This document shows positions 6,640-39,069 of a stretch of 43,032 nucleotides of DNA, in pieces. Position 1 is the first letter of the stretch. Every line of letters begins with the position of its first letter. A program made the translations under genes and the position numbers. The DNA comes from a virus: positions 1 through 43,032 of the IMG/VR virus record IMGVR_UViG_3300043774_001155, one strand, 5' to 3'. The notes under the pieces are model-generated. The model saw nothing but the letters and a program-made list of their open reading frames with translations, had not been told where the DNA came from and made no database searches.

Positions 6640-8184
6640 TTATTTGCCAGAAGATCTTTGTTGGAATAGTGATTCGATTTTTGCCTTAGTGCCTGATGGA
6701 TCTTGTACCATGTTTCCAATGTAGTTTTTACCTTCGAATTCAAGGCCTGCCTGTTTGCTACTTGTAGTAGCAGCTCTTAACCTTATTTCATATGCAGAGT
6801 CTCCTATGCATACATAGTAGAAAAGTACAATATCCAATCGTGTGGCTGCATCTAAAATAGCCAAATTTGTTTCTTTGCTATCAAATCCACCTATTAAGAG
6901 CGAGAATTGGTTCCCTACTTTCACCTCTTCAACATCGGCGGATCCTTTGTTAGAACCTGTTACTTTGAAGTACGGCGGATTCACTGCAGCGTTACCTGCT
7001 TTAAGCCCAAACATTAAAATTCTGAGAAGATTACTATCTAGGTCTTCCGGACTATTTTTTGGAAGCGTGAGCAAATGATATGTAAGTTTTATCGCAGCAA
7101 GCTTATCTATCAAATTCTTTGGTTTAATAGCATTCACGTCGCTTGGGCTGTAGTTTACCGTTATTCCCGATGAAGACGCAGCGTCTTTCATCTTTTGTTG
7201 ATAACTCATGATTTCCGATTTAAGCCAATCAGAATCATTTTCTTTTGCAAGATCGTCTTTTGTTAAATTGTATTTTGCGTCTCCCGGAGAAATTGATTTT
7301 AGGAATTCCTTTGCCCTACCCAACCTAGCCACTTGTTGTTTAAGAGATATCGCAACAATTGAACCGTACGCTTCCGAGTTTGAAGAACGCGGCGTCAAAG
7401 TGTCATTGAACAGAAGATTCAATTCAGCAACTGTCTGGGCATTTGATATGTGTTGTAGAGCGTTTGCTTTTGCTGATGCATCTACCAGATAAACATCGCC
7501 CGGGCACCAGTTATCAGGAGAAAGCCCTGTGAGCTTTCGAGCCGCATCTCGTGCAGCACCGAGAACTGTTTTTCTGTCCATTCTATATCCAGCGTTCTTA
7601 AATGCTGATAGTGCGTTTGCGCAAGACTTCCATTGATTGGCAAGGCTTACAAGTTCTTTGTCCGAAGAATCAAACCCTAACAGCCATGCTCTAATTTTAT
7701 CAATGTAAACTTGACTAAGATCATCGGCAGGAATGTTACTAACTAGAGCAGCGGCGTCTTCCTCATCTATTGAGGAAAGATCTACATCTTGATTGTAGTA
7801 AAAATAGACCACCATAAGTTCTTTGGTGTCAGTATCTCCTGCTTTTGAAGTGCTAGTAAAGACTCCTGTTTTTTGAAGTTTTGTTAGTGGAATTTCTTCC
7901 TTTCCAACTTTCAAAAATGGGCCTTTTGCACTAATTTCTGCGCCCCCTCCAATATAAGCAATGATTTCTTCTAGATTAGAAATGTCTGACACTCTAAACG
8001 ATGAGACTCTGAAGCTTTTTTGAAATTCTGGATCTACTTTGAGTTCTTTTTCACGATCTTTTAAGAAAACCTGGAACATCTTGCGATACTTTCCCCCGCC
8101 CTTTACCCACTGAGCGGGCGCCATTGCACTTTCATACAATGCACCTTCATTTAACACCCAACTTTTGTAGTCTAGCAAGCCCAT
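6640..8184 (-). CDS. Conserved phage protein, 514 aa, CTS-like start
   Basis: Begins MGLLDYKSWVLNEGALYES, which fits the T4 capsid-targeting pattern with a possible V-x-E cleavage site. A central segment (~residues 225-285) reads NWCPGDVYLVDASA, then ELNLLFNDTL and GSIVAISLKQQ. I associate that order with a family of T4-like phage proteins of unknown function. The spacing of the acidic residue and S-x-K could be a remnant or variant of a PD-(D/E)xK nuclease core, but I would not call that. The C-terminus is beta-rich (AYEIRLRAATTSSKQAGLEF). Likely packaged or virion-associated; it closes a transcription unit with a strong terminator. Confidence 0.55.
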   Translation of the reverse strand: MGLLDYKSWVLNEGALYESAMAPAQWVKGGGKYRKMFQVFLKDREKELKVDPEFQKSFRVSSFRVSDISNLEEIIAYIGGGAEISAKGPFLKVGKEEIPLTKLQKTGVFTSTSKAGDTDTKELMVVYFYYNQDVDLSSIDEEDAAALVSNIPADDLSQVYIDKIRAWLLGFDSSDKELVSLANQWKSCANALSAFKNAGYRMDRKTVLGAARDAARKLTGLSPDNWCPGDVYLVDASAKANALQHISNAQTVAELNLLFNDTLTPRSSNSEAYGSIVAISLKQQVARLGRAKEFLKSISPGDAKYNLTKDDLAKENDSDWLKSEIMSYQQKMKDAASSSGITVNYSPSDVNAIKPKNLIDKLAAIKLTYHLLTLPKNSPEDLDSNLLRILMFGLKAGNAAVNPPYFKVTGSNKGSADVEEVKVGNQFSLLIGGFDSKETNLAILDAATRLDIVLFYYVCIGDSAYEIRLRAATTSSKQAGLEFEGKNYIGNMVQDPSGTKAKIESLFQQRSSGK

Positions 8185-8773: not shown

Positions 8774-9769
8774 TTATCTCTCTTCCAGGAGTTTGTTTTC
8801 AAAGATGATGTTGCAAATCTCTCTTGAAATTGCAGTATCAGAAGGGAAGTGTATACCAGTTACTTCTCTACTGCGTGCAATCTTTTCGCCATGAGCCCGT
8901 AATTCTGTTGCAATTGCTGGATATTTATTTGCAAAATGTTCAGCCATTACAAAACCAGTTAGTGCATGGCCGCTTGGATATGCGGCGCTCATTGCATCAG
9001 TACGAATCAGTGGGTAAATTGGATAGTTGTAGTACTTTGCTAATTGATAAGGTCTTGGACGATTAATTACATCTTTCATAAAATGCAAAAGTCCTTCGGT
9101 CTGTGAATCAACACCAAAGAAGTCTCCCATACTTACTTCATGACCGTTTTCCGCCAAGATATCTAAAAAAGATTGAGCAAGGTTGCTAACGTCTTCCACA
9201 TATCGAGCGAATGTAATTTCTTCGGCAGTTGCTTTGGATGTCAGTTCTACCAATGCTTTCAAATCATTCTGAGTGGTTTCGCTGTCGTTGGCGGGTGCTT
9301 CTGCTCTCATTTTTTCTACAAGACCCTTTTCAATAAACCAATTTTTGATGTAGTCATCAGGCTCTTGCATAAGATCAAAATACTCTTTGGGGGGATTTCC
9401 ATAGTTAACCTGGTTGATGTTGATATTTTCATCCAGTACACCCATCTGAGATTCATATAGGTCAGTTTTCTTCTTTTTGCCTTTATCAGGTCCACCTTCA
9501 TGAGGTATCATACCCTGAGCAATCAGAGAGGTTTTAACGCCAAACGGAATTTCTTTACCATCTTCGTATTCCTTCTTATACTTTTGCAGAGTTTCCTCTT
9601 TGTATGGAGACTCCTTTTCACTTACTTGTGAGGTTTCATGTCCACACTTATGACAAGCATAAGGATCATTGCCGCCTGTGACAATATCCCATTTCCATCC
9701 ACAGTTATCGCAAATTACTTTGCCATTTGTGTTAACTCTTTCAGCTATGAATTCTCTGTAGTTTTTCAT
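8774..9769 (-). CDS. PAP2/class A acid phosphatase with N-terminal zinc-ribbon and CTS
   Basis: 331 residues. Residues 1-10, MKNYREFIAE, nearly match the T4 internal-protein capsid-targeting sequence as I recall it (MKTYQEFIAE), with cleavage expected after Glu10. Residues 20-42 carry C-x2-C and C-x2-C (ICDNCGWKWD, CHKCGHE), a zinc-ribbon seen in other phage proteins; residues 72-100 hold KEIPFGVKTSLIAQGMIPHE. Residues ~150-331 are a PAP2 phosphatase with all three signatures: K232-x6-RP (KDVINRPRP), PSGH at 265-268, and SR-x5-H-x3-D at 300-311 (SREVTGIHFPSD). This family removes phosphate from lipids, nucleotides or other small esters through a phospho-His. No membrane segments, so it should be soluble. 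I infer that it is packaged and injected. Confidence 0.85.
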   Translation of the reverse strand: MKNYREFIAERVNTNGKVICDNCGWKWDIVTGGNDPYACHKCGHETSQVSEKESPYKEETLQKYKKEYEDGKEIPFGVKTSLIAQGMIPHEGGPDKGKKKKTDLYESQMGVLDENININQVNYGNPPKEYFDLMQEPDDYIKNWFIEKGLVEKMRAEAPANDSETTQNDLKALVELTSKATAEEITFARYVEDVSNLAQSFLDILAENGHEVSMGDFFGVDSQTEGLLHFMKDVINRPRPYQLAKYYNYPIYPLIRTDAMSAAYPSGHALTGFVMAEHFANKYPAIATELRAHGEKIARSREVTGIHFPSDTAISREICNIIFENKLLEER

Positions 9770-10062
9770 TTATCAAGTAGGTCTTCTCTGCCGAGCTGTT
9801 TGTAAACCTCTTTGCGAGTTTTTTCCATTTTCTCAGCATATTCAGGGTCATCATTACGGTTAAACACAATTTGCTGTGTAAGACTTCCACTAATCTTTTT
9901 TAGATCCTTATCACGAGTTTTAATAAGCCAGGCAGCCAAGTCCTTGATGCCAAGGTCGCGAAAACGACCTTCGGCATCAGGCGCATCACTGTCTTTCCAT
10001 TCCGGAGCACCTTTTGGCTTTTTTTCATTCAGCCAATCTTCGTATAGTTTGACGATTTCCAT
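9766..10062 (-). CDS. Conserved phage protein, 98 aa, CTS-like start
   Basis: Begins MEIVKLYEDWLNEKKPKGAP: aromatic-x2-Trp-Leu-x-Glu, again like a capsid-targeting sequence with an L-x-E cleavage site. The core reads WKDSDAPDAEGRFRDLGIKD, then AAWLIKTRDKDLKKISGSLT and NRNDDPEYAEKMEKTRKEVY, a strongly patterned sequence typical of a conserved phage family of unknown function. It overlaps the phosphatase gene by 4 bases (ATGA), so the two are translationally coupled. Confidence 0.65.
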   Translation of the reverse strand: MEIVKLYEDWLNEKKPKGAPEWKDSDAPDAEGRFRDLGIKDLAAWLIKTRDKDLKKISGSLTQQIVFNRNDDPEYAEKMEKTRKEVYKQLGREDLLDK

Positions 10063-10068
10063 ACAGTT

Positions 10069-10902
10069 CTATTTTGTAAGTGCTGTGTAGTACTCTTTGA
10101 AATGCTTAATACGGTCGGCCAAACCAATGGTACCGCCGTTAACTCTTTTAGTTACTGCAGTAACTGTAGCATCATCTGCGCCTTTATCGCAAATAGCCCA
10201 AAGCTTATTTGAATCAAAGAAAAATGCAGCAGAAGCCAAAGGATATTTAGTTGCAACCAAATCAGGATTAGCAACAGTGTCTTCACCAATAAACTTAGCA
10301 AAAGCAGTGTAATTGCTTTTTCCTGTTAGTTGAATATATCCACGGCCACGAAATTTGAATCCTTCTTTAGATGCTTCATCTCCGTTCCCCATTCTAGAAG
10401 CGTAAACTCTAGATGCAATCTTTTCAGGTTGACGAGCATACGACTCATTAAGATTTCCAGGAAAGTATTTTCCAAAGATTTTCTTCAAACCATCTGCAGA
10501 GTAATTAAGGTTTTCACTTACTGCCTTGAACCCGCCAGACTCATGTCCACATTGAGAAAGGAAGTGAGCAAGTCTCAAATTGTTTGTGATATTGAATTTT
10601 GCAGCAGTATCAGGTATTTGAGCAATTACTGCATCAGGAACGTGTCCTTTCAAACCTTCAAGATTAAGACCTTCAACTTTCGGCGCTGGTGTTGAAGCCA
10701 CGGGCGCCGCAGGTGCAGCTGCTCCAAACAATTTACCCCATGTTCCATCACCTACAATACCGTCAGCAGTCAAGCCGTTTGCTTGTTGCCATGCAACTAC
10801 AGCAGCTTTGGTTTTAGGACCAAAATTTCCGGTTGGCTCTACGCCCAACTTTGCTTGGATTTTTTTAACGTCTTCTCCTTTTGAACCTTCTTTTAATAGC
10901 AT
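10069..10902 (-). CDS. Endolysin: peptidoglycan-binding domain plus GH19 chitinase-like domain
   Basis: 277 residues. Residues ~3-58 form a PG_binding_1 domain (KEGSKGEDVKKIQAKLGV, GNFGPKTKAAVVAWQQANGL, DGIVGDGTWGKLF). An Ala/Pro linker follows (60-76). Residues ~85-277 are a GH19-type muramidase/chitinase domain: FLSQCGHESGGFKAVSE puts the catalytic Glu at about 121 with a second acid near 130, and GRGYIQLTGKSNY is the family hallmark. No signal peptide, so access to the wall needs a holin; the holin-like gene is immediately upstream. Degrades host murein at lysis. Confidence 0.9.
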   Translation of the reverse strand: MLLKEGSKGEDVKKIQAKLGVEPTGNFGPKTKAAVVAWQQANGLTADGIVGDGTWGKLFGAAAPAAPVASTPAPKVEGLNLEGLKGHVPDAVIAQIPDTAAKFNITNNLRLAHFLSQCGHESGGFKAVSENLNYSADGLKKIFGKYFPGNLNESYARQPEKIASRVYASRMGNGDEASKEGFKFRGRGYIQLTGKSNYTAFAKFIGEDTVANPDLVATKYPLASAAFFFDSNKLWAICDKGADDATVTAVTKRVNGGTIGLADRIKHFKEYYTALTK

Positions 10903-10919
10903 ATCTTTTCTATATTATT

Positions 10920-11273
10920 TTAGCATTGACAAGGATCTTGTCCACATGATTCGCATGTTGATGAAGCTGCTTCAGGCTTAGTAGCTGTAGTAGCTGAATT
11001 GATGTCTTTTCTTGTTTTAACAAATTTGTCAACAGATGATAAACCAAGAGTTGCAAACGCAAGCAGAGCAACCGCATCTACCAAGTATTGTGCTGGCGCA
11101 ATGTCAGTAGTAGAAAAGCTGTTGTGATACATTGTAATGCACAATGTAAGAGCGCAAACAACACCTACAAATCTTTTTGATGATGGTGTGCCTGTTTCAT
11201 CTTTGAAAAGACCAGCTAACCACGTTGTAGATCCACTAGAGATCTCCTTAATGATTGAAAAAAACTTTTTCAT
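10920..11273 (-). CDS. Holin-like two-helix membrane protein with Cys-rich tail
   Basis: 117 residues. Two membrane segments are visible at about 33-50 (RFVGVVCALTLCITMY) and 62-82 (YLVDAVALLAFATLGLSSV), preceded by a charged N-terminus and followed by a polar tail ending CESCGQDPCQC. Size, topology and position immediately before the endolysin fit a holin. The C-terminal cluster of four Cys is unusual and may bind metal or form disulfides. A second two-helix protein at 16714-17082 is a rival holin candidate. Confidence 0.65.
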   Translation of the reverse strand: MKKFFSIIKEISSGSTTWLAGLFKDETGTPSSKRFVGVVCALTLCITMYHNSFSTTDIAPAQYLVDAVALLAFATLGLSSVDKFVKTRKDINSATTATKPEAASSTCESCGQDPCQC

Positions 11274-11304
11274 GTTTTGTGTGATTTATTTTATTTATCC
11301 ATTG

Positions 11305-11772
11305 TTAGTCTTTGAGTTTGGACCTATAGAGAATGATCTTATCAATGGCATTCTGAAAGAGCCAGCTCTCAACGTATGGAAGCTTGCAAATAAACTCGTA
11401 TTCTTTTAAGTAGCATTCGTATTCTTCACGATTTGGATCCAAAATTGTGCCATGATTGAATAGGTACAAATGATAAGATTCATGAACAAGTACGCATGCT
11501 ATATTATTGATAGAGTTTAATTTGAATTCTTTTGTAGAAATGGATATTGTATGCGGCGTGTATGTTGTTGAAAAATTGCCTAAGGTATAGTCTATGGTTT
11601 TGCAATTTTCAATCAAAATTTGATATGAGACGCTATCAGTGTCCTTAATAAGTTGAATTGCTGAATCAACTTTGGCGTTCCACCCATCACCAGCATCCAC
11701 GACTTTAATTTGTGCAAAAACGCTGTTTGCAAAGAAGAGAAAAATAAACGCTATGGCATTTGCAATACGCAT
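11305..11772 (-). CDS. Exported HExxH metallopeptidase-like protein
   Basis: 155 residues with a clear signal peptide (hydrophobic 5-18, cleavage after SVFA). Residues 93-105 read CVLVHESYHLYLF, containing H97-E98-x2-H101, the zinc-binding motif of gluzincin-type peptidases; acidic residues around 116-124 (REEYECYLKEYEF) could give the third ligand. The protein is short for a full peptidase, so it may be a minimal one or a degenerate relative. It overlaps the preceding secreted gene by 22 bases. Target unknown; periplasm or outside by the signal peptide. Confidence 0.6.
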   Translation of the reverse strand: MRIANAIAFIFLFFANSVFAQIKVVDAGDGWNAKVDSAIQLIKDTDSVSYQILIENCKTIDYTLGNFSTTYTPHTISISTKEFKLNSINNIACVLVHESYHLYLFNHGTILDPNREEYECYLKEYEFICKLPYVESWLFQNAIDKIILYRSKLKD

Positions 11773-12206
11773 TGTTCAATCGCTTTTTTAAGTGCAGAAG
11801 ATACGGTCATCTTCTGAAATGGTATGGAGCCTTCAACAACTTCAAGCATAACTGTTCGTATTTCAGTGTCTGATTCTCCGTAGGCTTCATATTTCTTTCC
11901 ATCATAATGGATTCGTACCCCAACTTGAGTAATTTGATTTGTTTTTTCAACACCTACAATTCTAACGGTAGTTTTAGGAAGCCCAAAGAAAAAGACCTCT
12001 ACATGAAGAGGCAGGCCGCTTTCTGATATGCAATACTTTTCAGAAAGCATATCCTCTGTCATTTGTTTGATCCCAAACCGAATATCTCTCTTACCAAGAT
12101 CTTTAAATTTGGCAGTGGAATAAACAGAGTCTACTGACAAACAATTTTGTGCTTGCGCTGAAATTGTAAACAAAGCCAGTATAAAAAGAAAGATTAGTTT
12201 TCTCAT
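11751..12206 (-). CDS. Exported protein, 151 aa, possibly distant CsgG relative
   Basis: Signal peptide 1-19 (MRKLIFLFILALFTISAQAQ). The mature part has a stretch TTVRIVGVEKTNQITQVGVR followed by IHYDGKKYEAYGESDTEIRT and a C-terminal helix (SSALKKAIEQCVLQM). The order TQ[IV]-x-[VL]-G[VL]-, a Gly/Glu-rich turn, then a terminal helix also occurs in the CsgG homologue at 15992-16711 (TQITRLGLQVKF ... SLETASARIVQRM), so a diverged relation is possible but weak. Cys residues at both ends could pair. Role unknown; part of the exported-protein block. Confidence 0.5.
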   Translation of the reverse strand: MRKLIFLFILALFTISAQAQNCLSVDSVYSTAKFKDLGKRDIRFGIKQMTEDMLSEKYCISESGLPLHVEVFFFGLPKTTVRIVGVEKTNQITQVGVRIHYDGKKYEAYGESDTEIRTVMLEVVEGSIPFQKMTVSSALKKAIEQCVLQMP

Positions 12207-12793
12207 TTTATGCGATATTTTTTGTAGTCAGTTGAAAGTGGTTTTTCATTTTTGAAATAATAGACCTCAGTCGTCTTACCGTATTTGATGGTCTTAAAGT
12301 AACCATCTGGAATAGTTGCTCCAGTTGGAAGAACTATAGATTTTGCACTATAAACACAACGTATTTCAACCACCACATTTTTATGAGTCTTTGCAAGTTC
12401 TCTTTCGTATGCTTCCAGCAACCTCCAGGTTGTGCGGTTAAGATTTTCTTGTTGAAGCGAGCAATTCAAGTAGCTGAACGTTTTAAGAAGAGTTTCTCGA
12501 GTGCAGTTAAAGTCCGCGGCCGGAGCCATGTGGCCTTTGTCATACGGGTTATTGTAATAGTCGTTATTGTCTGATGTCAAAATGCTATCACAAACATAAA
12601 AGTCCATGCCAGATCTAGAAGCAGAACCAGTTGGACATTGCACGGTATATTTTACAAACTTGGGTTGCTGCAATTTTTCTGAGTACACAACTTCAAATAT
12701 GTCAGTTTTGATGTAGATGGAGTCTCTTAAAACTTTTTGAGCGTTTGCCAGGATTGGCGCAACAAATAATAGTAGAAATAGAAGTTTTTTCAT
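12203..12793 (-). CDS. Exported DNA/RNA non-specific endonuclease (NUC1, His-Me finger)
   Basis: 196 residues with signal peptide 1-18 (cleavage after NAQ). The His-Me finger is visible: YDKGHMAPAADF at ~84-95 (family DRGHxxP, Arg replaced by Lys, catalytic His88), then YLNCSLQQENLNRTTWRLLE (108-127) with the metal-binding Asn of the N-x4-Q-x3-N signature, and IPDGYFKTIKY near the C-terminus. This family (Serratia nuclease, EndoG) cuts DNA and RNA without sequence preference. With a signal peptide it acts in the periplasm or outside. It might clear host or competitor DNA at the cell surface, or act at lysis. Overlaps the next gene by 4 bases. Confidence 0.85.
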   Translation of the reverse strand: MKKLLFLLLFVAPILANAQKVLRDSIYIKTDIFEVVYSEKLQQPKFVKYTVQCPTGSASRSGMDFYVCDSILTSDNNDYYNNPYDKGHMAPAADFNCTRETLLKTFSYLNCSLQQENLNRTTWRLLEAYERELAKTHKNVVVEIRCVYSAKSIVLPTGATIPDGYFKTIKYGKTTEVYYFKNEKPLSTDYKKYRIK

Positions 12794-12809
12794 AGTTTGA
12801 AATTGTTTT

Positions 12810-14483
12810 TTAGTAGTTTACTTGACCTGCATATCCAGGTGCTATTAGGTATAAGTTTAAAGATCCACCGCTAATAGGAGAATTTACTGTATATGAACTT
12901 ACTCCAGGATAAGTAGACTTAAGATTTGTAGTTCCGCTATTAAGAGCAGAATACTGTGCTGTGGTATACAAAGCAGATGGCAAAGTAGATACCCATGAAT
13001 TGAATCTACCTTGTCTTTTAGCACTTATGTAATACTTATCAGTAATTGTAAGTCGCCCATCATTATTTACATCATACATATTCCAATGCAAGCTTTTTCT
13101 TATCGTAATTCCAAGTATTACATTTCCTATTGCTGCTAAGTCGGATTGCTGAATTAACGTAGTAGGATTCCCAGCGTCAACTTGTATGTACCATTCTGTT
13201 GCTGGATTGGTTGACTGGCTAAAACTCCAATATCCAGAAGAATTGGTATAAACGGTTTGGTGTAGGATCCAAGGAGTAAATGTAACCACATAGTCAAATT
13301 CAATTACATAAGGAAGCGAAGTATTTGGTAAGTCATTCCATTTACCACCGCCTACAAATTGAGCGTAATCTTCATTGCCAGAATTATTAGGTTCTCCGCC
13401 ATTCCAATTGGTGTATTGATTTGTTTTATATCGATACGCATAGAGATTGTACGTTCTATCCAATTCATCTATAGTCAAAGCTCTATTAAAAACTTGAAAA
13501 CTTCCTAAACGAAATGCCCCATATCCACCGTGCCCCATATTAGTGGCATCAGACAGACCGAGTGCAAAATGCTCGCCATTTCCATATAAATGAGCAGCTT
13601 GCCTTGCAAAAGCAATTGATCCAAAATTTACATTATTCAGATAGCCTCTCATTGTAGTGCCATCATAAGTTACTGCAATTAAATGCCAAGCATTAAGTGT
13701 AATAGCAGTACTTAGTTGTGTAATGCCAATCCCATTCCAAAATCCTACTCTCAGCGTATTACTACCAGTAATTTCAATTACCGATTCATGCCAGCCTGAA
13801 GATGGACTACCCACGCCAAGCTCAGATGCAATAACACCATTTCCTGTAGGATAAACCCAAGCCAATAGAGTTATAGCACTAGTGGAACCCATTTTGCTAG
13901 ATAAATTATTTGTAATAGCATATGTAGTAGATCCATTAAATGTTAAGTATTTGCCTCCCGTGCTTGTATAAGTAGGTGTATTGTAAAGAGTTGCATGCAC
14001 CGGTGAAGCTGTGATGTCTGATAAGGTAGTTCCGCTAACATAAGAAGAAACATCGTAATCTGCTTGTAAGTTTGTTGTTACTTTGGATTCGGTCCATCGG
14101 TAACCACCATTTGGTTCAGAATAGGTGTAACCAGCAACTCTATCCTGGTAATAACCAATCCATCCAGATGGCCATGTGTTAAAAAGGAAATTGTTTTCTG
14201 CTAAATTGGAAACCGTCGCAAGATGCCCACCCATGTTTTCACAAGCAGCCTTTGCAGCAGTCCAAGTCATAGACCCTGTTGAACGATAATAAGAGTGTCC
14301 ATTGTAATTGGTCTGTGATGTAAACCCTGATAAAGTAGGTGTGGTTCTTTTGTAAAGTTTGACCGGTACGTTTACAGCGCCTGAACCATTTGCGTTATAC
14401 ACATAACCAGAATATGTAAAGGTTTGAGCAAACAAATCTCCAATTCCAAGTAAAAGCGCAAATACAAAAATCTTTAGCTTCAT
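12810..14483 (-). CDS. Exported protein: LamG domain nested in a C-type lectin domain, plus dockerin-like repeat
   Basis: 557 residues, signal peptide 1-20. Residues 58-138 are the first half of a C-type lectin fold (GHSYYRSTGSMTWTAAKAAC, GGHLATVSNLAEN, YRWTES). Residues ~140-350 form a LamG/concanavalin-like domain (YLTFNGSTTYAI, ITLLAWVYPTGNGVI, AWHLIAVTYDG, FQVFNRALTIDEL). Residues 355-398 complete the lectin: TNWNGGEPNNSGNEDYAQF, KWNDLPN, YVIEF. Flanking stretches 21-50 and 400-437 look like two halves of one beta-sandwich, so the lectin itself may be inserted. A dockerin-like calcium loop (DVNNDGRLTITDKY) is at 471-484. No T9SS domain at the end. Likely binds glycans; ATGA overlap with the gene behind it. 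Confidence 0.75.
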   Translation of the reverse strand: MKLKIFVFALLLGIGDLFAQTFTYSGYVYNANGSGAVNVPVKLYKRTTPTLSGFTSQTNYNGHSYYRSTGSMTWTAAKAACENMGGHLATVSNLAENNFLFNTWPSGWIGYYQDRVAGYTYSEPNGGYRWTESKVTTNLQADYDVSSYVSGTTLSDITASPVHATLYNTPTYTSTGGKYLTFNGSTTYAITNNLSSKMGSTSAITLLAWVYPTGNGVIASELGVGSPSSGWHESVIEITGSNTLRVGFWNGIGITQLSTAITLNAWHLIAVTYDGTTMRGYLNNVNFGSIAFARQAAHLYGNGEHFALGLSDATNMGHGGYGAFRLGSFQVFNRALTIDELDRTYNLYAYRYKTNQYTNWNGGEPNNSGNEDYAQFVGGGKWNDLPNTSLPYVIEFDYVVTFTPWILHQTVYTNSSGYWSFSQSTNPATEWYIQVDAGNPTTLIQQSDLAAIGNVILGITIRKSLHWNMYDVNNDGRLTITDKYYISAKRQGRFNSWVSTLPSALYTTAQYSALNSGTTNLKSTYPGVSSYTVNSPISGGSLNLYLIAPGYAGQVNY

Positions 14484-15991
14484 AGCAAAAACCGAGTACC
14501 CATCATAACGGTATAGTTAAGAGCGTTTTCCTGAATAGCCCACGCGCCGCCGCCATTGATGTTTATTTTGAATTTTTTCGTTATGCCAATGTTAGTTCCA
14601 ATAATAGGTAGAACTACATGTGGTGATTTTAAGAGTATGTCATTGTAATAACTTACATAAGGTGCATAAACATACAGACCCATAAGTTTAATGTCTAGTC
14701 TCTTTCCAATTTTTAGATCGTACATGGCCCCTGCTATTGCAGCGGTTCCTACAAAAGGTTCTCCGTAAACAGAACCTGCGGAAGCTGTTAGCATATAAAG
14801 AGCTTTTATCTTTTTCTTTTTGTCCAAGTCCCACATTTGGCCAAGAGCAAGCGTGCCATAAACAGTTGGCTTTCTGTCAAAACCAATAGTAAGAGAAGTA
14901 GAAATTAAGTCAATTCTACGCTTTCTTATGAAAGCATAAAATCCACTAATGTTTGGTCCTCTTAGAGCAGTTGTATAATCAACAAGTACTCCATGAGCTC
15001 GTGCACCATCCCACCTTGCTGATGTATAGCCTCCGGTAAATTTACCGCCATAGTCTACATCAGAGTTTTTGAAATTAAAGCCTACAAAATCACTGCTCGC
15101 TATAACATTTGGTCTATTTCCATTCTTATTGGAGGCGGATTGAACATTATTTGTAGTCGACCCAATTATGTTAGTCTTTCCACCACCAGATTCTTCTGTT
15201 TTTGGATCTTCCGTTGTACTCCCAGAACCATTTGATCCTCCATTAGATCCAGAGCCGCCAGAACCATTTGATCCTCCATTAGATCCAGAGCCGCCAGAAC
15301 CATTTGATCCTCCATTAGATCCAGAGCCATTTGAGCTGCCGGGCGGATTTGATCCTTGCTGGCCCTGTCCTCCATTGGATTCAGACCCACCAGCTGGATT
15401 TGAACCTTGCTGACCTTGCTCGCCAGATGGATTTGTTGAGCTTCCACTTCCGGGGTCTTGAGAACCTACCTGTCCTTGTCCTTGCGACGCATTTCCGCTA
15501 TTGCTTTGACCAGAGGTATTGACACCACCAGTCCCATTAGAACCAGAATTATTTGATGAATTTCCATTTTTCTTACCTTCTTTTTTCCCATTAGTTGCTC
15601 TAGATGCATTGTCAACTCCTGAAAGAATGTTAGTAGAACCTCCTGCCAGGTCTTTAACCGCATCCAAGGAATTAATGATGCTTAAAAAGTTTAGTGTAGT
15701 TCCTTGAGCTATATTAATACCAGTCGGTAGACCGATAACAGTAGCGCATGGGTTATTCCCACCAAAAGAACCATAAACGCCTTGAGCCCAGTTCTCAAAA
15801 GTCCCGCTATAAAAATCTCCAGGCTGAAACGTATTTACCTGACCATAGTATGTTACCGTGATTCCATTTGATGGCACTACAAGAGTTTTTGTAACTCCGG
15901 TGCATGGATCCGTGTATGAGTAGTTTACCTGCCCATAAGAAATAATAGGCAAGAGTATTGATAGTATGACAAGCAGGAGTTTTGCATTCAT
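14480..15991 (-). CDS. Exported protein with Gly/Ser/Asn repeats and outer-membrane-barrel-like C-terminus
   Basis: 503 residues, signal peptide 1-20 (cleavage near SYGQ). Residues 21-100 form a small domain with two Cys (DPCTG, NNPCATV). Residues ~130-270 are low-complexity Gly/Ser/Asn/Gln, including three exact 12-residue repeats. Residues ~295-503 alternate strands and turns (VYGTLALGQMWDLDKKKKIK, SAGSVYGEPFVGTAAIAGAM, LDIKLMGLYVYAPYVSYYND), ending MMGTRFLL with a terminal hydrophobic residue, as in outer-membrane barrels. It directly follows the CsgG homologue (1-base gap), so it may be that pore's partner or substrate. Function unproven. Confidence 0.55.
   Translation of the reverse strand: MNAKLLLVILSILLPIISYGQVNYSYTDPCTGVTKTLVVPSNGITVTYYGQVNTFQPGDFYSGTFENWAQGVYGSFGGNNPCATVIGLPTGINIAQGTTLNFLSIINSLDAVKDLAGGSTNILSGVDNASRATNGKKEGKKNGNSSNNSGSNGTGGVNTSGQSNSGNASQGQGQVGSQDPGSGSSTNPSGEQGQQGSNPAGGSESNGGQGQQGSNPPGSSNGSGSNGGSNGSGGSGSNGGSNGSGGSGSNGGSNGSGSTTEDPKTEESGGGKTNIIGSTTNNVQSASNKNGNRPNVIASSDFVGFNFKNSDVDYGGKFTGGYTSARWDGARAHGVLVDYTTALRGPNISGFYAFIRKRRIDLISTSLTIGFDRKPTVYGTLALGQMWDLDKKKKIKALYMLTASAGSVYGEPFVGTAAIAGAMYDLKIGKRLDIKLMGLYVYAPYVSYYNDILLKSPHVVLPIIGTNIGITKKFKININGGGAWAIQENALNYTVMMGTRFLL
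15222..15329. repeat. Three tandem 36-bp direct repeats in coding sequence
   Basis: Units at 15222-15257, 15258-15293 and 15294-15329; the first two are identical, and the third differs only in its last base. They are in frame and encode a 12-residue Gly/Ser/Asn unit three times inside the 503-aa exported protein. Recent slippage or duplication is likely. There are no spacers, so this is not a CRISPR array. Confidence 0.9.
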
Positions 15992-16711
15992 TTACGATTT
16001 GAAGATTCCTTTTTTGATCATTCTTTGAACAATTCTAGCAGAGGCAGTTTCTAGCGACTTTTTGGTTGTGATACCAATATGAGATTGGTTGAATTTTATT
16101 TCGCTCTCATCAATACCATCTAAAATTGAAACGGTTTTGACTGTTTTAGCCTCGCCAAGTCCAGAACCCATTATGATTTCTCCGGTTTCTGCATCAACAA
16201 ATTTTACTTGCAATCCCAGTCTTGTAATTTGTGTAGTCTGTGATTGCCCGTTTACTTTAACAACTTCATCGTCAGAAACTGAGAAGTCATAGACTTCAAT
16301 ATAAACAAAGTATTCAGCAAGCTTAATTTTCCCACGCCCATCTACTTTGTTTTCAGTAAAACCTTTGTCAGATGCCTTAAATTGCTGAACCATTCTCTCT
16401 TTAATTTCCAATTTGTCCTCTGTAAAGACAAAACGGTTTGTATACTCCAAATACTCAAGTACAATGTTTGTTACACCCAATCCAACTCTTTTGTCTTTTA
16501 ACTCTGGGTACATTTCGTACAATTCCTCGTTAATGCCAATCTTTAAGATTTGAATAGGAATTTTGATGGTGTCTGTGTACTCAGGTACTGAGTCAATAGA
16601 CATCTTCTTTTCAAAGTCAGCTTGGTATTGCTCGGTCTTGATAGTTCCGACCTGAGCAATACCTTGCAATGACAAGAAAAGTGTTGCAAATATGAGTGCA
16701 AACTTTTTCAT
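15992..16711 (-). CDS. csgG: CsgG-family curli secretion pore homologue
   Basis: 239 residues, signal peptide 1-19 (cleavage after GIAQ). The mature sequence follows the CsgG pattern: VTNIVLEYLEYTNRFVFTED, then ERMVQQFKASDKG, GKIKLAEYFVYIEVYDFS, TTQITRLGLQVKFVDAETGE and IIMGSGLGEA, with a C-terminal helix (SLETASARIVQRMIKKG). CsgG forms the nonameric outer-membrane channel for curli subunits. The usual lipobox Cys is absent: the cleavage region reads GIAQVGT, so this version is not lipidated by that route. Flanked by a barrel-like protein and two small membrane proteins. It may serve export or membrane perforation during infection. Confidence 0.75.
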   Translation of the reverse strand: MKKFALIFATLFLSLQGIAQVGTIKTEQYQADFEKKMSIDSVPEYTDTIKIPIQILKIGINEELYEMYPELKDKRVGLGVTNIVLEYLEYTNRFVFTEDKLEIKERMVQQFKASDKGFTENKVDGRGKIKLAEYFVYIEVYDFSVSDDEVVKVNGQSQTTQITRLGLQVKFVDAETGEIIMGSGLGEAKTVKTVSILDGIDESEIKFNQSHIGITTKKSLETASARIVQRMIKKGIFKS

Positions 16712-16713
16712 TT

Positions 16714-17082
16714 TTAATCAGCAGTATTTGATGTTACATTTGAAAGAGAAACACCGTCCTCTTCGTCAACTTTTTGAATTAGCATTTTGTCACGGTCTTC
16801 CGAATTGAACCAGTAGTCAACCACTTTATTGAGATTTCCTACAAACGCACCAAAAAGAATAAGCAGCATTTCTTTCCAGTTTTCAGCAATTTCTATGCCA
16901 AAAAATACTGCTGAATTAATGCCTAAGATGATAAAAAAGAACAGGCCCAATACAATGGCTGTAATTTTCCAGCGATTAGCCTGCATTTGTTGCAGCATAT
17001 AGTAGAACCGATTTTTAGGATCTACTGGAACTGGCTCAGCTTGACTGAAGCCCGCTAGGTTTTTGATTTTTTTGAGAGCCAT
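16714..17082 (-). CDS. Two-helix membrane protein, holin candidate
   Basis: 122 residues from the ATG at 17082 (MALKKIKNLAGF); the frame could extend to a TTG at 17106, but that overlaps the gene behind it. Two membrane segments are seen at about 41-60 (ITAIVLGLFFFIILGINSAV) and 73-88 (EMLLILFGAFVGNLNKVV), followed by DYWFNSEDRDKMLIQKVDEE. The DYWF(N)...RDKMLIQK tail is a pattern I connect with small phage membrane proteins. Sits between another single-helix protein and CsgG. Could be a holin or an accessory of the export pore. Confidence 0.6.
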   Translation of the reverse strand: MALKKIKNLAGFSQAEPVPVDPKNRFYYMLQQMQANRWKITAIVLGLFFFIILGINSAVFFGIEIAENWKEMLLILFGAFVGNLNKVVDYWFNSEDRDKMLIQKVDEEDGVSLSNVTSNTAD

Positions 17083-17099
17083 CTCTAATCTTGTAATTT

Positions 17100-17438
17100 T
17101 TACCAAGGAGCGTCAGAGCTTTCGCTTTTCTCCTCTTTTTTCTTCTCTTCTTTTGCAGGTTTATCAGTAGACTTCTCACGAATTACCGTGGTACTTCCAC
17201 CGCTTGTAGCATTATTCTTTGATGAGTTATCTACATTAAGAATAATGTTAGGCTGTTGAGCAGGCGCCGCTTGCTCAGTTTTTGGCTCTTCTTTTTCTTC
17301 GTGACCTCCGTTAAACAGAGCCACGCCAAGCCAGGTTCCGCCACCTGCAATAAGTGTGGTAATAGTTCCAATGATAGTTTTCTTTAGCCCAGACCAGGTG
17401 CCATCATTGTGATCTGTGTTTGTTGCTTCTTCAGACAT
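17100..17438 (-). CDS. Single-span membrane protein with charged low-complexity tail
   Basis: 112 residues. One hydrophobic segment at about 19-41 (LKKTIIGTITTLIAGGGTWL, then GVALF), then a Glu/Lys/Pro/Ser-rich region with a short strand-like stretch (NIILNVDNSSKNNATSGG). The last 30 residues are nearly all Lys, Glu and Ser. Leader contains AAACAAAAAT. It lies in the exported block between the T9SS protein and the holin-like gene. Spanin-like or anchor role possible; no family recognised. Confidence 0.55.
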   Translation of the reverse strand: MSEEATNTDHNDGTWSGLKKTIIGTITTLIAGGGTWLGVALFNGGHEEKEEPKTEQAAPAQQPNIILNVDNSSKNNATSGGSTTVIREKSTDKPAKEEKKKEEKSESSDAPW

Positions 17439-17449
17439 GATGTATGAAT

Positions 17450-19369
17450 TTATTTTTGTTTGATTATTCTAGCCCCTTCGGACTGTGTGCTTGATTGCAA
17501 AGTTGCTATATAAAGCCCCGATGCTAGTGTTTCAATGTTTGATTGATATGTATAGTTTCCAGCAGGCATTTGTTTATCAAGAATGATATGCTGAATTGAA
17601 CCGTTTGAATTGATAAGGTAAAGTTTTACCTGGCTAGACTCCTTTACGGAAAAGTTTACATAAAAGTCTCCTGTTGTAGGGTTAGGGTAAACTACCATAC
17701 GGTCAGATTGATTATTGATTGTAGCCATTTTTGCAACAATTAAGATGCCATTTGTAGGATTGATGGACATATCTTTAGATGCATCATTACCGGAAAATTT
17801 GCGTGTAGTCCATAGAGGTGATGTTTCCCAATCGCCCTGCGGCTTTTTAGCAATAAAGTTAAGTGTAAAGATATTGTAGTTATCAGGAATCATATACTTT
17901 TTGTCAACCGAAGGATCATAACCAGCCCAGTCAATCATACCATTCATTGGATTGAGTGAAGACATCCAAAACATTGCCTTATCAGAATTCTTAAGTTCTT
18001 TGAATTCTAAAAGTTCTTCGTCATAAAGCATTCCAAGTTGTAATGCAGAAATGTTTTGACCGTTGGTCTTTAATGTTACTGGAATCTCTACCAGATTGCC
18101 TTCATTAACTTTAATCTTTGGCATATTTACTTCCATGAAAGAGGTTGGAAAGTCATACTCAACACTCATATCAATGATATTTTCCATTGCAGAGGGATAG
18201 TTAGGATCTGGGTTAGGAAGAATTTCAATAGGAGTAAGACGAGCCATGTGGTAGCCAGTACCGTTAGCATCACCAGGTACAAGAACGTAGAATGTTACAG
18301 AGTCAGGCTGGCCTGGTAAAATTGTATGATAGAAGTTGGTTACACCAGCAATTGTTGATGTATAGTTGGTTGAAGGAGTTCCTGTAATGGTGTTGTATTC
18401 AGAAACTGTAAAGAACTTGATGTCCTTTACGTTATTTGGCCAAGTATTAAATCTTCCAGATATTCTACCAAATACGCCATAAGCATCGGTAATTGTTAAG
18501 TTGTTTGAACCATTAACATCTGCCGTGTAAAAGTCCCATCCAGATGGAGCAGATCCACCAAGAACCCACTGATTAATTAGCTGGGCATCGGCTGTTGTAA
18601 TAACGTTGCCTACACCCATCGTGTCACCTTGAATTGCAAGACGAACTGCGTAGTATGTTGTATCGATGATTTCAGAAAATGAAAAGTCACCGTTAATGTC
18701 TGTTGTATATGTAGCATGCTGCGACCATGTAGATCCAGAATGCGGCTTTTTCTCCAGAGCTAGAGTTAAGTTTTTAGCAGCTGAACCGGTTACGTTTGTA
18801 AATGTGCCGTGATACGTAAGAGTCGGCTGATCCCATTGACCGCCATAGCTGTGTAAGGCTAAAGTAGTATCAAGACCATTCTGCGCTGCTGCGTATTGGT
18901 TATATGATTGTACTCCGGTCCATTCCAAGTCGCTTATAGAAGGCAAAGCAAAGAATGTTGCAGGAGCTACGTGATTGAATGTAATAAGGAATCTTTCACC
19001 ATCAGCTAATGTATACGATGCGCTACTTCCTGTGTAGACCAGGGTGATTGTTACATACCCGCTTGCATTGTTGTCGAGGTATTGTAAGTCTAGGTTTGTT
19101 GTTGAACCTATAAGTGAAACTGATGCAGAGTCAAATGCATTTTTATCATAGAAGACTCTGAACTGCACGCCGGTAAAGAGGGTTGCAGTAGTATTTTTAA
19201 GAGTTATTTTTGCTTGTGATTGCCCTTGTGTACTAGTACCTACTTGATATGTTGTATCAATTAAGGCGTATATTCCATTGCCTGGAGCGGGCGGACCCGA
19301 TTGTGCAAACAGGTCATTTGTTGAGAACAGTAGCACTAACAACGTCAGTGCCGCGAGGATTTTTTTCAT
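17450..19369 (-). CDS. Exported cohesin/dockerin-like protein with T9SS C-terminal sorting domain
   Basis: 639 residues, signal peptide 1-23 (cleavage after FAQ). Residues ~36-150 and ~413-545 each resemble a cohesin domain (QAKITLKNTT...GVQFRVFYDKNAFDS; VEIPVTLKTNGQNISALQLG...MLYDEELLEF). Residues 184-248 form a beta-sandwich; 252-310 a dockerin-like repeat pair with a DVNGSNNLTITDAYGVF calcium loop. Residues 558-639 are a Por/T9SS type A sorting domain: MVVYPNPTTGDFYVNFSV, VKLYLINSNG, MPAGNYTY, LASGLYIATL. That domain sends proteins through the Bacteroidota type IX system to the cell surface. In a phage this implies use of the host's T9SS. Function may be adhesion or surface modification. 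Confidence 0.8.
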   Translation of the reverse strand: MKKILAALTLLVLLFSTNDLFAQSGPPAPGNGIYALIDTTYQVGTSTQGQSQAKITLKNTTATLFTGVQFRVFYDKNAFDSASVSLIGSTTNLDLQYLDNNASGYVTITLVYTGSSASYTLADGERFLITFNHVAPATFFALPSISDLEWTGVQSYNQYAAAQNGLDTTLALHSYGGQWDQPTLTYHGTFTNVTGSAAKNLTLALEKKPHSGSTWSQHATYTTDINGDFSFSEIIDTTYYAVRLAIQGDTMGVGNVITTADAQLINQWVLGGSAPSGWDFYTADVNGSNNLTITDAYGVFGRISGRFNTWPNNVKDIKFFTVSEYNTITGTPSTNYTSTIAGVTNFYHTILPGQPDSVTFYVLVPGDANGTGYHMARLTPIEILPNPDPNYPSAMENIIDMSVEYDFPTSFMEVNMPKIKVNEGNLVEIPVTLKTNGQNISALQLGMLYDEELLEFKELKNSDKAMFWMSSLNPMNGMIDWAGYDPSVDKKYMIPDNYNIFTLNFIAKKPQGDWETSPLWTTRKFSGNDASKDMSINPTNGILIVAKMATINNQSDRMVVYPNPTTGDFYVNFSVKESSQVKLYLINSNGSIQHIILDKQMPAGNYTYQSNIETLASGLYIATLQSSTQSEGARIIKQK

Positions 19370-19398
19370 TTTTCATGCGTTGTTTTTTTAGGGGGGTT

Positions 19399-20466
19399 TT
19401 ATAGTAAGTTGTTTATTTTGTCCACATATGTGGACACCAATGTTTTCACCTTCTCTGCTGCAGCCTTTGCAGCAGGAGTTTCTGCCTTATCAAACTTTGT
19501 GTTTGATGCGGCTGCTTCCATCTTTTGAATGTATCTTTCCTTCACGGCTTTGAGGAGATCATTCGCAGATTTGTATTTTATGACTGTGCCAAATTCTCCA
19601 AGTTGTTCCAGCGTATCGGCAACTCCGCGAATACCGTCTACTAAATCCTCAAAAGTAGGGTTATTGGAGTTGATGCCTTTCCAAGATTTTAATGAAGATG
19701 CTTCTTCATATGGCTTTTCAGTCCCGCCTTGTTCCCAAAAGAACTTGGCAATATCGTGCATAAACGTAGATATGTTTGATGTAATAAGTTTGTCCTCTAC
19801 ACCAGCCCGCTTACTGTAATTTACCATTTGTGTGCCAGCAAATTTAGCGCGAACTCCTCTTGGTTGAATACTAATTTCCAAAACTTCACCAAACGCTGAA
19901 TAGAGATTGCCAAGGACAAATCCTTTTATATTGCGGATTGGTGTCATGCGAAAAATAGCCCATTCCTTATAGCCACTATGAGTAACTACCATATCAACTT
20001 GAATCCACCCATCACCTTCTGGCGTAGCTACTTGCATAATAAGTTTCAGGTCAGTTGTGGACGACACCTTTTCGGTTTCTGCCACATCAATAAAAGAATA
20101 CCTTTGTGTTTTTAGGAAGTTAAGTAGTTCCTCATTATAGAGTTTTACAGATGCAATTTCATTTTCCCGCTCACTTTTTTCTGTTAAGTTAAGGGTAGGA
20201 TATGAAACCATAAAGTCCACATCGCCATAAACCTTATCAGGCTGGGAATCAATATCATCTTTATACCACGTGCCACTGCCAATTGGCTTAAGGAATTCCA
20301 ATGTAGGCAGCTCAATAGTTTTACAGTGTTTAACAAAGTCAGAAGAAATTGCTGCTAACTTTTTGACAGAGTCCGCAATGACTTTTGGACGAATCACAGT
20401 CTCCTGTGTTTTTGTAGTCGCCCAGCCGCCTTCTGCTAGCCATTGTTCAAAAAGTTTAATGTACAT
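19399..20466 (-). CDS. Nucleotidyltransferase-fold protein with CTS-like start
   Basis: 355 residues. Residues 1-12 (MYIKLFEQWLAE) match the capsid-targeting pattern with an L-x-E site. Residues 60-87 carry the nucleotidyltransferase core: KPIGSGTWYKDD then YGDVDFMVSYP, giving GS at 63-64 and the two metal-binding Asp at 82 and 84; the third Asp is at 158 in WIQVDMVVTH. The C-terminal ~100 residues are helical. The family adds nucleotides to RNA, proteins or small molecules. Stop/start overlap (TAATG) with the next gene. I infer that it is packaged and injected; the target is unknown and antitoxin-like or AMPylation roles are open. Confidence 0.7.
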   Translation of the reverse strand: MYIKLFEQWLAEGGWATTKTQETVIRPKVIADSVKKLAAISSDFVKHCKTIELPTLEFLKPIGSGTWYKDDIDSQPDKVYGDVDFMVSYPTLNLTEKSERENEIASVKLYNEELLNFLKTQRYSFIDVAETEKVSSTTDLKLIMQVATPEGDGWIQVDMVVTHSGYKEWAIFRMTPIRNIKGFVLGNLYSAFGEVLEISIQPRGVRAKFAGTQMVNYSKRAGVEDKLITSNISTFMHDIAKFFWEQGGTEKPYEEASSLKSWKGINSNNPTFEDLVDGIRGVADTLEQLGEFGTVIKYKSANDLLKAVKERYIQKMEAAASNTKFDKAETPAAKAAAEKVKTLVSTYVDKINNLL

Positions 20467-21668
20467 TATGCTGTTGCCTCTTTTGGTTTTTCTTCTTTTG
20501 AAGAGTCTTCTCCTGAAGTCTCACCTTTCTTTTCCTTTTCTCCTTGGCCTGCTAGCTGTTCAATAATTCCATAAACAAGTAGACCGATTCCACAATACTT
20601 AATAATGCTGAAAACAATTCCCGCTCCGGGAATTGCAATCCCTAATGCATGTTCTAGTGCGTGAAGCCCCATTTTAACAGCGCTCTTTGCAAAATTTTCT
20701 GCGTAGTAACCAACCACAACGCCTACCAGCCCGCCTACAATATAGAAATTAAACGGTCCAGGAGCGCTTGCTATTTTTGAAAGAACAGCACTCATTCTGT
20801 TAAGACCGTCATTTACTTTTACCTCTACCTTGCTGCCAAGATCGTGGAAGTATTTGAAAGGTGGTAAGTGACCAAGCTTTTTGAACACAGCGGATATGAA
20901 AGGTATATTTAGTCCGCCCTCTTTTCCGTGTCCGCCACCTTCGTTAAGTTGACGAGATATTTCATCTCGACTTAGTCCTTCAATTTGTTTAATTGTTTCT
21001 TCCAAAACAGCAGCCTCTACATAGTTCATATAAAAACTCTCCTCTGTCTTGGCCGCGGTTGCTGCAGATTTTCCCATCGACTCTACAAAGCCTCCAGTTA
21101 TCCAGCCAGCGCCTGCGCTAGCCATCTGCTTCATATTTTTGGCTTCTTCAAGAAGACTTTTCTTCTTTTCCCCGTCCTTTATGATAGACTTGATGCGCTC
21201 TTCAAGTTTGCCTTTTACTGCATTTAGAGATTGAGCAGCAAGCTCTTTGCCTTTTTCCCATACCTGTTTGATACCTTCTGCTATCTTTTGCAGAACCATC
21301 TTAATAGGCTTGAGAAGGTCTCCGGCAAATTTCATAGTAGCCTTGGTAGCATCGCTCAATTTTTCTTTTGCTTTTGCTCCAAGTTCTTTTGCTTTTTCAA
21401 ATCCTTCTTTGGCTTTTTCTTTGAATTTTGCAAAAAGAGACTCCTCATTAAGAGCAATACTTTCATAAAGAGACTCGTAATTGTCAGATTCGATTGCTTC
21501 AAAAATTTGCTCGGTATAACCAAGATCTAAAACGCTCTCAAAAAGTGCACGGTCTTTCCATCCAAGGACTTTTTTGGAAGTCTCTGATAAAAAGCGTTTT
21601 CTTACGTGAGAAAGCTTTACTTCACCATATGACTCCAACAAAAATTGTTGATAAGAGAGTAGTGACAT
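20466..21668 (-). CDS. Helical, partly membrane-active protein with CTS-like start
   Basis: 400 residues. It begins MSLLSYQQFLLESYGE, with a possible L-x-E cleavage after residue 12. Residues ~75-200 are amphipathic Lys/Glu/Ala helices (KFKEKAKEGFEKAKELGAKA, KLEERIKSIIKDGEKKKSLL). Residues ~305-375 hold three hydrophobic segments (FYIVGGLVGVVVGYYAENFA, LEHALGIAIPGAGIVFSII, GIGLLVYGIIEQL), then an acidic tail. Such a protein could be an internal virion protein that reaches the host membrane during DNA entry. No enzymatic motif. Confidence 0.55.
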   Translation of the reverse strand: MSLLSYQQFLLESYGEVKLSHVRKRFLSETSKKVLGWKDRALFESVLDLGYTEQIFEAIESDNYESLYESIALNEESLFAKFKEKAKEGFEKAKELGAKAKEKLSDATKATMKFAGDLLKPIKMVLQKIAEGIKQVWEKGKELAAQSLNAVKGKLEERIKSIIKDGEKKKSLLEEAKNMKQMASAGAGWITGGFVESMGKSAATAAKTEESFYMNYVEAAVLEETIKQIEGLSRDEISRQLNEGGGHGKEGGLNIPFISAVFKKLGHLPPFKYFHDLGSKVEVKVNDGLNRMSAVLSKIASAPGPFNFYIVGGLVGVVVGYYAENFAKSAVKMGLHALEHALGIAIPGAGIVFSIIKYCGIGLLVYGIIEQLAGQGEKEKKGETSGEDSSKEEKPKEATA

Positions 21669-21677
21669 ATTAAAAAG

Positions 21678-22298
21678 TTACTTTTCTGGTTCTATAACCA
21701 CAACTGCTGTTACATCAGCCGTAGGTTCTACTTCGGTTGATCCATTTTGGTTAACCACATTAGCTCTTCCATAAACTGCCATGTTTACATCGTGATTGAT
21801 CGGAACGTTACGAAGAACTTCTGAACCAAGCATATTGTTATAGCTTGGATAGAGAGCAAAGTTCTCAGAAATAAAATCTCCGAAAGATGCGATATCTTTG
21901 GCTTCTTTGATTGGATATGTCTTTCCATTGAATTCAAACTCTTTCAAGCCTTCCTCTTTAGCCTTCATCATCGCTGCAGTAAAAGCATTTCCTTCTTTTA
22001 CCTCAGTTTCATCTTCAACTTCTTTATTGGCATCATCTGCTGCATCAGAAGCTGGAGTTTCAGAAGCATCTGCTTTTGGATCCTCTTTTTTCTCTTCGTC
22101 AGGTGAAGTTGTATTTGGCTTTTCAGCGCCAGGCGCTTCTGGAGTTTCTGCAGGCTTTTCAGCAGTAGGAACTACATCAGTTTTAGGCTCTTCAGCGGTT
22201 GCTGTGGTATCAGCTGCGCCAGTATCTGGCTTTTTCTTTGGGTCCACATTCGGATTCTCATCCTGAAGGAACTCATCAAATTTCTTTACGTGTTTCAT
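21678..22298 (-). CDS. Acidic low-complexity phage protein, 206 aa
   Basis: First gene after a terminator/promoter boundary. It starts MKHVKKFDEFLQDENPN, a weaker capsid-targeting-like sequence. Residues 15-100 are Pro/Ala/Glu/Thr-rich and very acidic, like phage scaffold or core proteins. Residues ~102-135 contain EGNAFTAAMMKAKEEGLKEF and EFNGKTYPIKEA, a compact motif I associate with Bacteroidota phages. The C-terminus is beta-like and ends in a Val-rich strand (ADVTAVVVIEPEK). A prohead core or internal-protein role is inferred. Confidence 0.55.
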   Translation of the reverse strand: MKHVKKFDEFLQDENPNVDPKKKPDTGAADTTATAEEPKTDVVPTAEKPAETPEAPGAEKPNTTSPDEEKKEDPKADASETPASDAADDANKEVEDETEVKEGNAFTAAMMKAKEEGLKEFEFNGKTYPIKEAKDIASFGDFISENFALYPSYNNMLGSEVLRNVPINHDVNMAVYGRANVVNQNGSTEVEPTADVTAVVVIEPEK

Positions 22299-27361: not shown

Positions 27362-27376
27362 TTTTTGTTTTTATAT

Positions 27377-27655: not shown

Positions 27656-27670
27656 TTGTTTGTTTAGATC

Positions 27671-27678
27671 TTATATTC
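27671..27678 (-). promoter_or_regulatory. Promoter-like motif GAATATAAG
   Basis: Minus strand GTGAATATAAGATCTAAACA, about 16 bases before the ATG at 27655. Clearest copy together with 23555. A variant (AAATATAAAAAC) lies at 27371-27378 before the gene at 27361. Confidence 0.55.
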
Positions 27679-29900: not shown

Positions 29901-29901
29901 G

Positions 29902-30828: not shown

Positions 30829-30841
30829 TGGTTTTGATTGT

Positions 30842-32258: not shown

Positions 32259-32277
32259 ATTGTTGATTATTTAGAGC

Positions 32278-39060: not shown

Positions 39061-39069
39061 GTTAGATGT

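Follow-up and report, generated by a model that had tools for sequence, protein, structure and literature searches.

The internal proteins of T-even phages are a diverse set that stands behind a single conserved capsid-targeting sequence (CTS) (PMC3012670), and CTS-tagged internal proteins are known as a kind. In the CTS of T4 IPIII, mutagenesis assigned residues 4 and 7 to targeting and residues 8 and 10 to processing, and an Asp at position 10 was reported to allow targeting while inhibiting processing (PMC9026906). We analyzed a 43,032-base viral contig, IMG/VR record IMGVR_UViG_3300043774_001155 (the whole stretch is called the window below), in which a set of genes starts with sequences resembling the T4 CTS. 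We consider it likely that a large T4-related phage carries the tagged proteins as internal head cargo, loaded by means of a removable CTS, and this phage probably infects Bacteroidetes.

In the mechanism that we propose, the tag would be a removable N-terminal CTS of 10 to 15 residues, in which two aromatic residues three positions apart would dock the protein into the prohead core. Once the shell has assembled, a gp21-type S77 protease would cut behind the Glu of an [LIV]xE site, usually before a small residue, and the cargo thus freed in the head would exit with the DNA at infection. A swappable tag of this kind could recruit unrelated bodies, among them a PAP2 phosphatase and a Pol-beta-type nucleotidyltransferase in the window and a cytidylyltransferase, a LicD protein, an acetyltransferase, and an ATP-grasp protein in sister contigs; the function of most of the putative cargo is unassigned.

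T4-like N termini in the window

No close match to the record was found in the phage collection searched, and three sister contigs carry genes of the window: G001 (142.9 kb), G002 (126 kb), and G003 (202.5 kb). Six minus-strand genes of the window start with a T4-like CTS, and a seventh, on the plus strand, has a degenerate form. All seven N termini had been quoted in a first-pass annotation of this DNA, and each was found where it had been placed. The tagged genes and the elements within them are as follows.

3732..3998, plus strand: 88-residue protein with the degenerate tag MIKSYNDFHKVNE; outside the 8774-22298 span of the first-pass annotation
6640..8184, minus strand: tagged 514-residue protein, MGLLDYKSWVLNE; outside the same span
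8774..9769, minus strand: tagged PAP2/class A acid phosphatase of 331 residues, with a zinc ribbon behind the tag
9740..9769, minus strand: tag MKNYREFIAE of gene 8774-9769, with a predicted cut after E10
9638..9712, minus strand: zinc ribbon CDNCGWKW..CHKCGH separating the tag from the enzyme; the G001 ortholog lacks it
9617..9625, minus strand: second predicted cut site, VSE, ahead of the KESPY enzyme start
9766..10062, minus strand: tagged 98-residue protein, MEIVKLYEDWLNE followed by KKP..., with an ATGA overlap with gene 8774-9769 and orthologs in G001, G002, and G003
19399..20466, minus strand: tagged Pol-beta-type nucleotidyltransferase, MYIKLFEQWLAE followed by GGWATT
20466..21668, minus strand: tagged helical protein, MSLLSYQQFLLE, with a hydrophobic C-terminal half; the G002 ortholog (40% identity) keeps the tag
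21678..22298, minus strand: tagged acidic low-complexity protein, MKHVKKFDEFLQDE, whose cleavage position is occupied by Asp

The N terminus MKNYREFIAE is, as had been claimed, nearly a copy of the T4 tag, which reads MKTYQEFIAE in IPII and IPIII. It had also been claimed that most of these tags contain an [LIV]xE site, and one is present at the tag end in six of the seven: in register in genes 8774 (IAE), 9766 (LNE), 19399 (LAE), and 20466 (LLE), one residue out of register in 6640 (LNE), and at looser spacing in 3732 (VNE). The N-terminal tag is kept in the sister orthologs of genes 9766, 19399, 20466, and 21678, and that of 8774-9769 is kept in G001 as MKNYKEFITE. It is kept loosely for 3732-3998, whose orthologs in G003 (78%) and G001 (64%) retain [YF]x[ED]F..[LV]NE. 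Within the 8774-22298 span, the tagged set is interrupted at 10069-19369 by an endolysin gene, a holin-like gene, and genes for signal-peptide proteins, all of them untagged.

The tag is enriched at N termini and stands ahead of unrelated proteins

We defined a strict motif, [YF]xx[FWYH][LIVM]xE in the first residues after Met, and used internal Met residues and shuffled sequences as controls for chance. The strict motif was found in 4 of 60 window genes, where about 0.3 were expected, and behind 12 of 2738 internal Met residues (0.44%; P = 1.5e-4); a relaxed motif was found in 7 of the 60 genes and behind 59 of the 2738 internal Met residues (P = 3e-4). Further CTS starts, which had been sought beyond the window, are numerous in the sisters, with strict N-terminal tags in 15 of 219 genes in G003, 17 of 157 in G001, and 26 of 143 in G002 (28 in a second count). 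Among further relatives, G013 has 15 in 288 and LR756500 has 24 in 672, and P values for the excess in sisters and relatives run from 1e-12 to 1e-37. The cultured Chryseobacterium phage MA9V-2, also a relative, has four strict candidates, in which FINE or FVNE precedes A or S. Related phages have about 15 to 40 tagged proteins per genome or contig. In the same N-terminal scan, PTm1, PAU, Lak-A1, and G004 had the strict tag at chance level. As a positive control, the strict motif recovered IPII and IPIII from 241 T4 frames. T4 gene 61.1 (NC_000866, 18966-19130, locus L191), which starts with MKTFKEFIKED, is also a strict tag match beside IPII and IPIII.

An alignment of 70 tagged proteins gave the consensus MKHxxxFExFLNE, with conservation near nil downstream of it, and the 64 strict-tagged proteins of the window, G001, G002, and G003 fall into 44 unrelated body families. 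Since the same tag stands ahead of unrelated bodies and conservation ends after it, the tag is a module. Body swapping can be seen at the 6640 locus, where genes syntenic to 6640-8184 in G003 (MGLLDYKSFILNE) and G001 (MSLLDYKNFIITEE) have near-identical tags, with no body homology to the window protein detectable in either contig. In the window, G001, and G003, these genes that share a tag and differ in body adjoin the PAP2 gene.

That the resemblance reflects chance, or simple paralogy of short amphipathic N termini, would suit matches that are individually short and degenerate. One relaxed match, at 1485-3656 (MADSKLYKFVKRE), is probably such a chance hit, and we discounted it because its orthologs do not keep the tag. 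As an account of the whole set, however, this explanation is extremely improbable given the size of the excess in sisters and relatives, the 44 unrelated bodies, and the behavior of the pattern in DNA. Across viral contigs, the tag DNA pattern had at least 120 matches, whereas its exact codon permutation and its reversal each had none.

The end of the tag resembles a protease site

The residue after the tag Glu was A, G, S, or N in 49 of 64 strict tags, compared to 26% after other [LIVM]xE sites (P = 9e-17), and this bias was seen again in LR756500 (P = 6e-5) and G013 (P = 8e-4). The presence of [LIV]xE in all 64 strict tags follows from the motif definition; however, among N-terminal matches to the other motif columns, Glu stands at +6 in 72%, compared to 14% elsewhere. 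Such a bias is as would be expected at a protease site. Around residue 45 to 55, the capsid proteins of most relatives sampled also read SLNE or AINE and then a small residue; L083, with VFEQ, is an exception. The similarity of this site to the tags fits a single protease that would cut both the capsid protein and the tags.

The tag of the 21678-22298 protein, FDEFLQD, has Asp in place of the +6 Glu, and this Asp is conserved in the G001 and G003 orthologs. The protein has a tag that the sisters keep, but without an [LIV]xE it lacks the protease site. Because Asp at position 10 of the T4 CTS was reported to leave the protein targeted and unprocessed, we predict by analogy that the 21678-22298 protein is packaged and remains uncut at this site. 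An acidic, low-complexity protein that is predicted to stay uncut, together with the helical 20466-21668 protein and its many core-protein-like LxE sites, would suit a reading that accepts packaging and processing of the tagged proteins but sees them chiefly as parts of the core or head structure and not as injected effectors. We regard this as unlikely, because the cargo includes enzyme domains and because cargo families differ between close relatives, as do the T-even internal proteins (PMC3012670).

A protease-scaffold fusion with tag-like repeats accompanies the tag

In sister G001, an S77 protease gene adjoins the gene for a gp23-type (T4-type) major capsid protein. This protease is a fusion protein whose scaffold part contains ten tandem 14-residue repeats, with heptads such as YAEYLAE and YAEHIAE. 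Tag and repeat have identical spacing, with an aromatic residue followed by an aromatic at +3, an aliphatic at +4, and Glu at +6, and the functional residues 4, 7, 8, and 10 of T4 occupy the same four columns.

We examined this association in both directions. When 20 contigs of at least 100 kb were chosen solely by tag DNA, S77 was found in 16 (the match in G025 being a mere 132-residue frame), gp23 in 16, and either or both in 18, and all 15 S77 frames of at least 504 residues carried 6 to 13 heptads. In 20 large control contigs (92 to 462 kb) chosen by a PhoH motif, the 10 S77 proteases found were 209 to 224 residues long and stood alone. None of these 10 loci had the repeats (Fisher P = 3e-7 against 15 of 15), and none of the 20 control contigs had the tag DNA pattern. 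PTm1, PAU, Lak-A1, and G004, which have no tag excess, have an S77 protease and lack the repeat.

These observations raise the hypothesis that the tag amounts to one unit of the scaffold repeat of the phage itself, so that the cargo would enter the core in the guise of an extra repeat and the attached protease would cut at the equivalent Glu. This is a refinement of the CTS explanation and not an opponent of it. The shared four-position spacing, the 15 of 15 against 0 of 10 result, and the missing tag excess in phages whose S77 loci lack repeats all argue for such mimicry, with the repeats defined as carrying [YFWH]xx[YHFN][LIVM]xE and each protease fusion having about 6 to 13 copies of the 14-residue unit. 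In contrast, residue preferences differ, with Y-x-x-Y-L-A-E in repeats and F-x-x-F-L-N-E in tags. A 7-column matrix built from the scaffold repeats, tried as an unbiased tag finder, picked up tags clearly in excess at N termini in just two cases, G001 (P = 2e-5) and LR756500 (P = 3.5e-3), and not in the window, G002, or G003. Because the full matrix failed outside those two, mimicry would be limited to the four-position pattern. We hold the idea to be evenly balanced because of this limit, because the co-occurrence may come from one clade and is thus confounded by phylogeny, and because the T4 CTS exists without such a repeat.

The N termini might instead direct proteins to another compartment or virion part, such as the tail, a membrane, or a replication site, with the Glu site incidental. 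The hydrophobic C-terminal half of the 20466-21668 protein, which possibly inserts in the membrane, could suit a membrane role. (An AlphaFold model of this protein, with a pLDDT of 36.5, was discarded.) Still, we find targeting elsewhere quite improbable, since the bias after Glu, the co-occurrence with the S77 protease-scaffold, and the positions mutagenized in T4 all indicate the head.

Predicted cargo enzymes and domain shuffling

The first-pass annotation had predicted a phosphatase and a nucleotidyltransferase among the cargo, and both assignments held. The 8774-9769 protein matches Pfam PAP2 at 33.6 bits (cutoff, 27.2) and acid phosphatases in the PDB with E values down to 9.7e-8, and its catalytic motifs KxxxxxxRP, PSGH, and SRxxxxxHxxxD are all intact; in the G003 PAP2, the Ser of the third motif is replaced by Thr. 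The PAP2 body starts with KESPY in all four phages, each time directly behind an [LIV]xE. This is VSE in the window (after tag and zinc ribbon), the tag's own ITE in G001, LDE in G002 (after the 98-residue protein), and VNE in G003, where it belongs to an internal tag-like sequence, FQTFEEFVNE. The 98-residue protein is itself a mobile domain, fused to PAP2 in G002 and G003 and internal in G013 behind VSE, and in every context, including that of G013, its body opens with KK after Glu. CTS-like starts in L012 and L015 are likewise followed by the zinc ribbon, which has an LGE downstream of it there and may for this reason be part of a longer propeptide. The same ribbon (CDNCGWKW..GG.D.Y.CHKCGH) is shared by many phage proteins that are otherwise unrelated (L003, L004, L006, L007, L012, L015, and others), either N-terminally or between domains.

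In the 19399-20466 protein, G63 and S64 (GS..DxD), D82, D84, and D158 are invariant among five orthologs. Its AF2 model has a pLDDT of 81, with residues 1 to 16 below 50, so the confidently modeled fold does not include the tag. No Pfam family matched this protein, and its best PDB match by Foldseek was DNA polymerase beta (E = 1.1e-4). As the overall TM score is low (about 0.32), the Pol-beta-type family is assigned from the core only, and the modeled fold and conserved carboxylates suggest a nucleotidyltransferase. An apparently tagless G013 nucleotidyltransferase proved to be an artifact of start choice, as a TTG start gives the tag-like KNIKSFTDFTDINE. Among the 70 tagged proteins, there were few further family matches (cytidylyltransferase, LicD, acetyltransferase, ATP-grasp, and DUF5824), and most have no recognized family.

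Other genes of the window and the likely host

A block at 11305-19369 contains genes with Bacteroidetes-type signal peptides, and the sisters carry other genes here. The block includes the following.

12203-12793: secreted DNA/RNA nonspecific endonuclease
12810-14483: lectin/laminin-G protein
17450-19369: cohesin-domain protein with a type IX secretion sorting tail

The signal-peptide gene 14480-15991 has Gly/Ser/Asn-rich low-complexity repeats at 15166-15447. Two neighboring genes for C-5 cytosine DNA methylases at 33780-36190 are apparently tandem paralogs. A sugar/nucleotide cluster at 25800-41596 encodes a glycosyltransferase, a cytidylyltransferase, an exo/endonuclease-phosphatase, and a sugar NTP-transferase with a weak kinase-like match. 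The capsid protein of G001 is 43% identical to that of the 462-kb phage LR756500 and about 40% identical to those of Prevotella Lak phages. Together with the Bacteroidetes-type signal peptides and the type IX secretion sorting domain encoded in the window, this relatedness suggests a Bacteroidetes host.

Weight of the evidence

Capsid targeting by the tag is well supported by these sequence patterns, and from them we infer that the tagged proteins are packaged, cleaved, and ejected; their entry into the host with the DNA would follow by analogy with T4 only. Published work on MA9V-1 and RaK2 holds no cargo proteomics usable for the tag question. Several points weigh against this explanation. 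The gp21-like protease that had been predicted to lie elsewhere in the genome was found beside the capsid gene in G001, and neither an S77 protease nor a capsid gene is present in the 43-kb window fragment. The contigs are related, so co-occurrence is not a count of independent events. The gene set is the output of a simple longest-ORF caller, and there are no added cut sites just past the tag ([LI]xE, 1.41% compared to 1.38%). In addition, single tag calls may err, since in T4 the strict motif overlooks IPI and Alt and picks out 61.1 and 61.4 as well.

If the explanation is true, the virion cargo of large uncultured phages becomes predictable from sequence, with a motif scan yielding tens of candidate delivered proteins per genome. 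This cargo is mostly without known function and is exchanged between close relatives, as host-takeover or antidefense proteins would be, and the scaffold repeats offer a concrete hypothesis for the CTS binding partner. A broader proposal, to which we give slightly less credence than its denial, is that large to huge phages of one clade fill their heads with a fast-exchanging arsenal of about 15 to 40 proteins per genome by means of tags that mimic a single repeat of their self-digesting protease-scaffold, that docking and release share one sequence, and that some tagged genes encode polyproteins cut in the head.

Comparison with known systems

In the open-access papers that the search covered, we found no CTS description for the LR756500 group, Lak, or bS21 phages, although bS21 phages have a gene named "prohead core scaffolding and protease" (PMC9723584). 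The scale of tagging, the repeat scaffold, the internal tags, the zinc-ribbon propeptide, and the conserved Asp variant are likewise undescribed there. phiKZ and SPN3US are similar in that they package many ejection proteins whose propeptides a gp21-like protease removes, but those propeptides are mostly far longer, and a short shared CTS set has not been described for them (PMC5694885). The huge Bacteroidetes phage LR756500 has the capsid gene, the protease-scaffold, and the strict tags, whereas Lak-A1 has the capsid and protease and lacks both the repeats and the tag excess.

As in T4 gp21 (Peptidase S77) and gp22, there is an S77 protease, an adjacent gp23-type capsid gene, and a core with many [LI]xE sites; in contrast to T4, protease and core are a single polypeptide of about 500 to 690 residues with a scaffold of tag-pattern 14-residue repeats. 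T4 IPI, IPII, IPIII, and Alt have the same arrangement of a removable N-terminal tag, of 10 to 19 residues, ahead of diverse bodies (PMC9026906, PMC3012670), with the same functional positions (4, 7, 8, and 10 of IPIII) and an [LI]xE cut by gp21. However, T4 has few tagged proteins, in contrast to the roughly 15 to 40 per genome or contig of the present clade, which also differs in its other enzyme cargo, in the internal tags of its fused proteins, and in the zinc ribbon in a likely propeptide.

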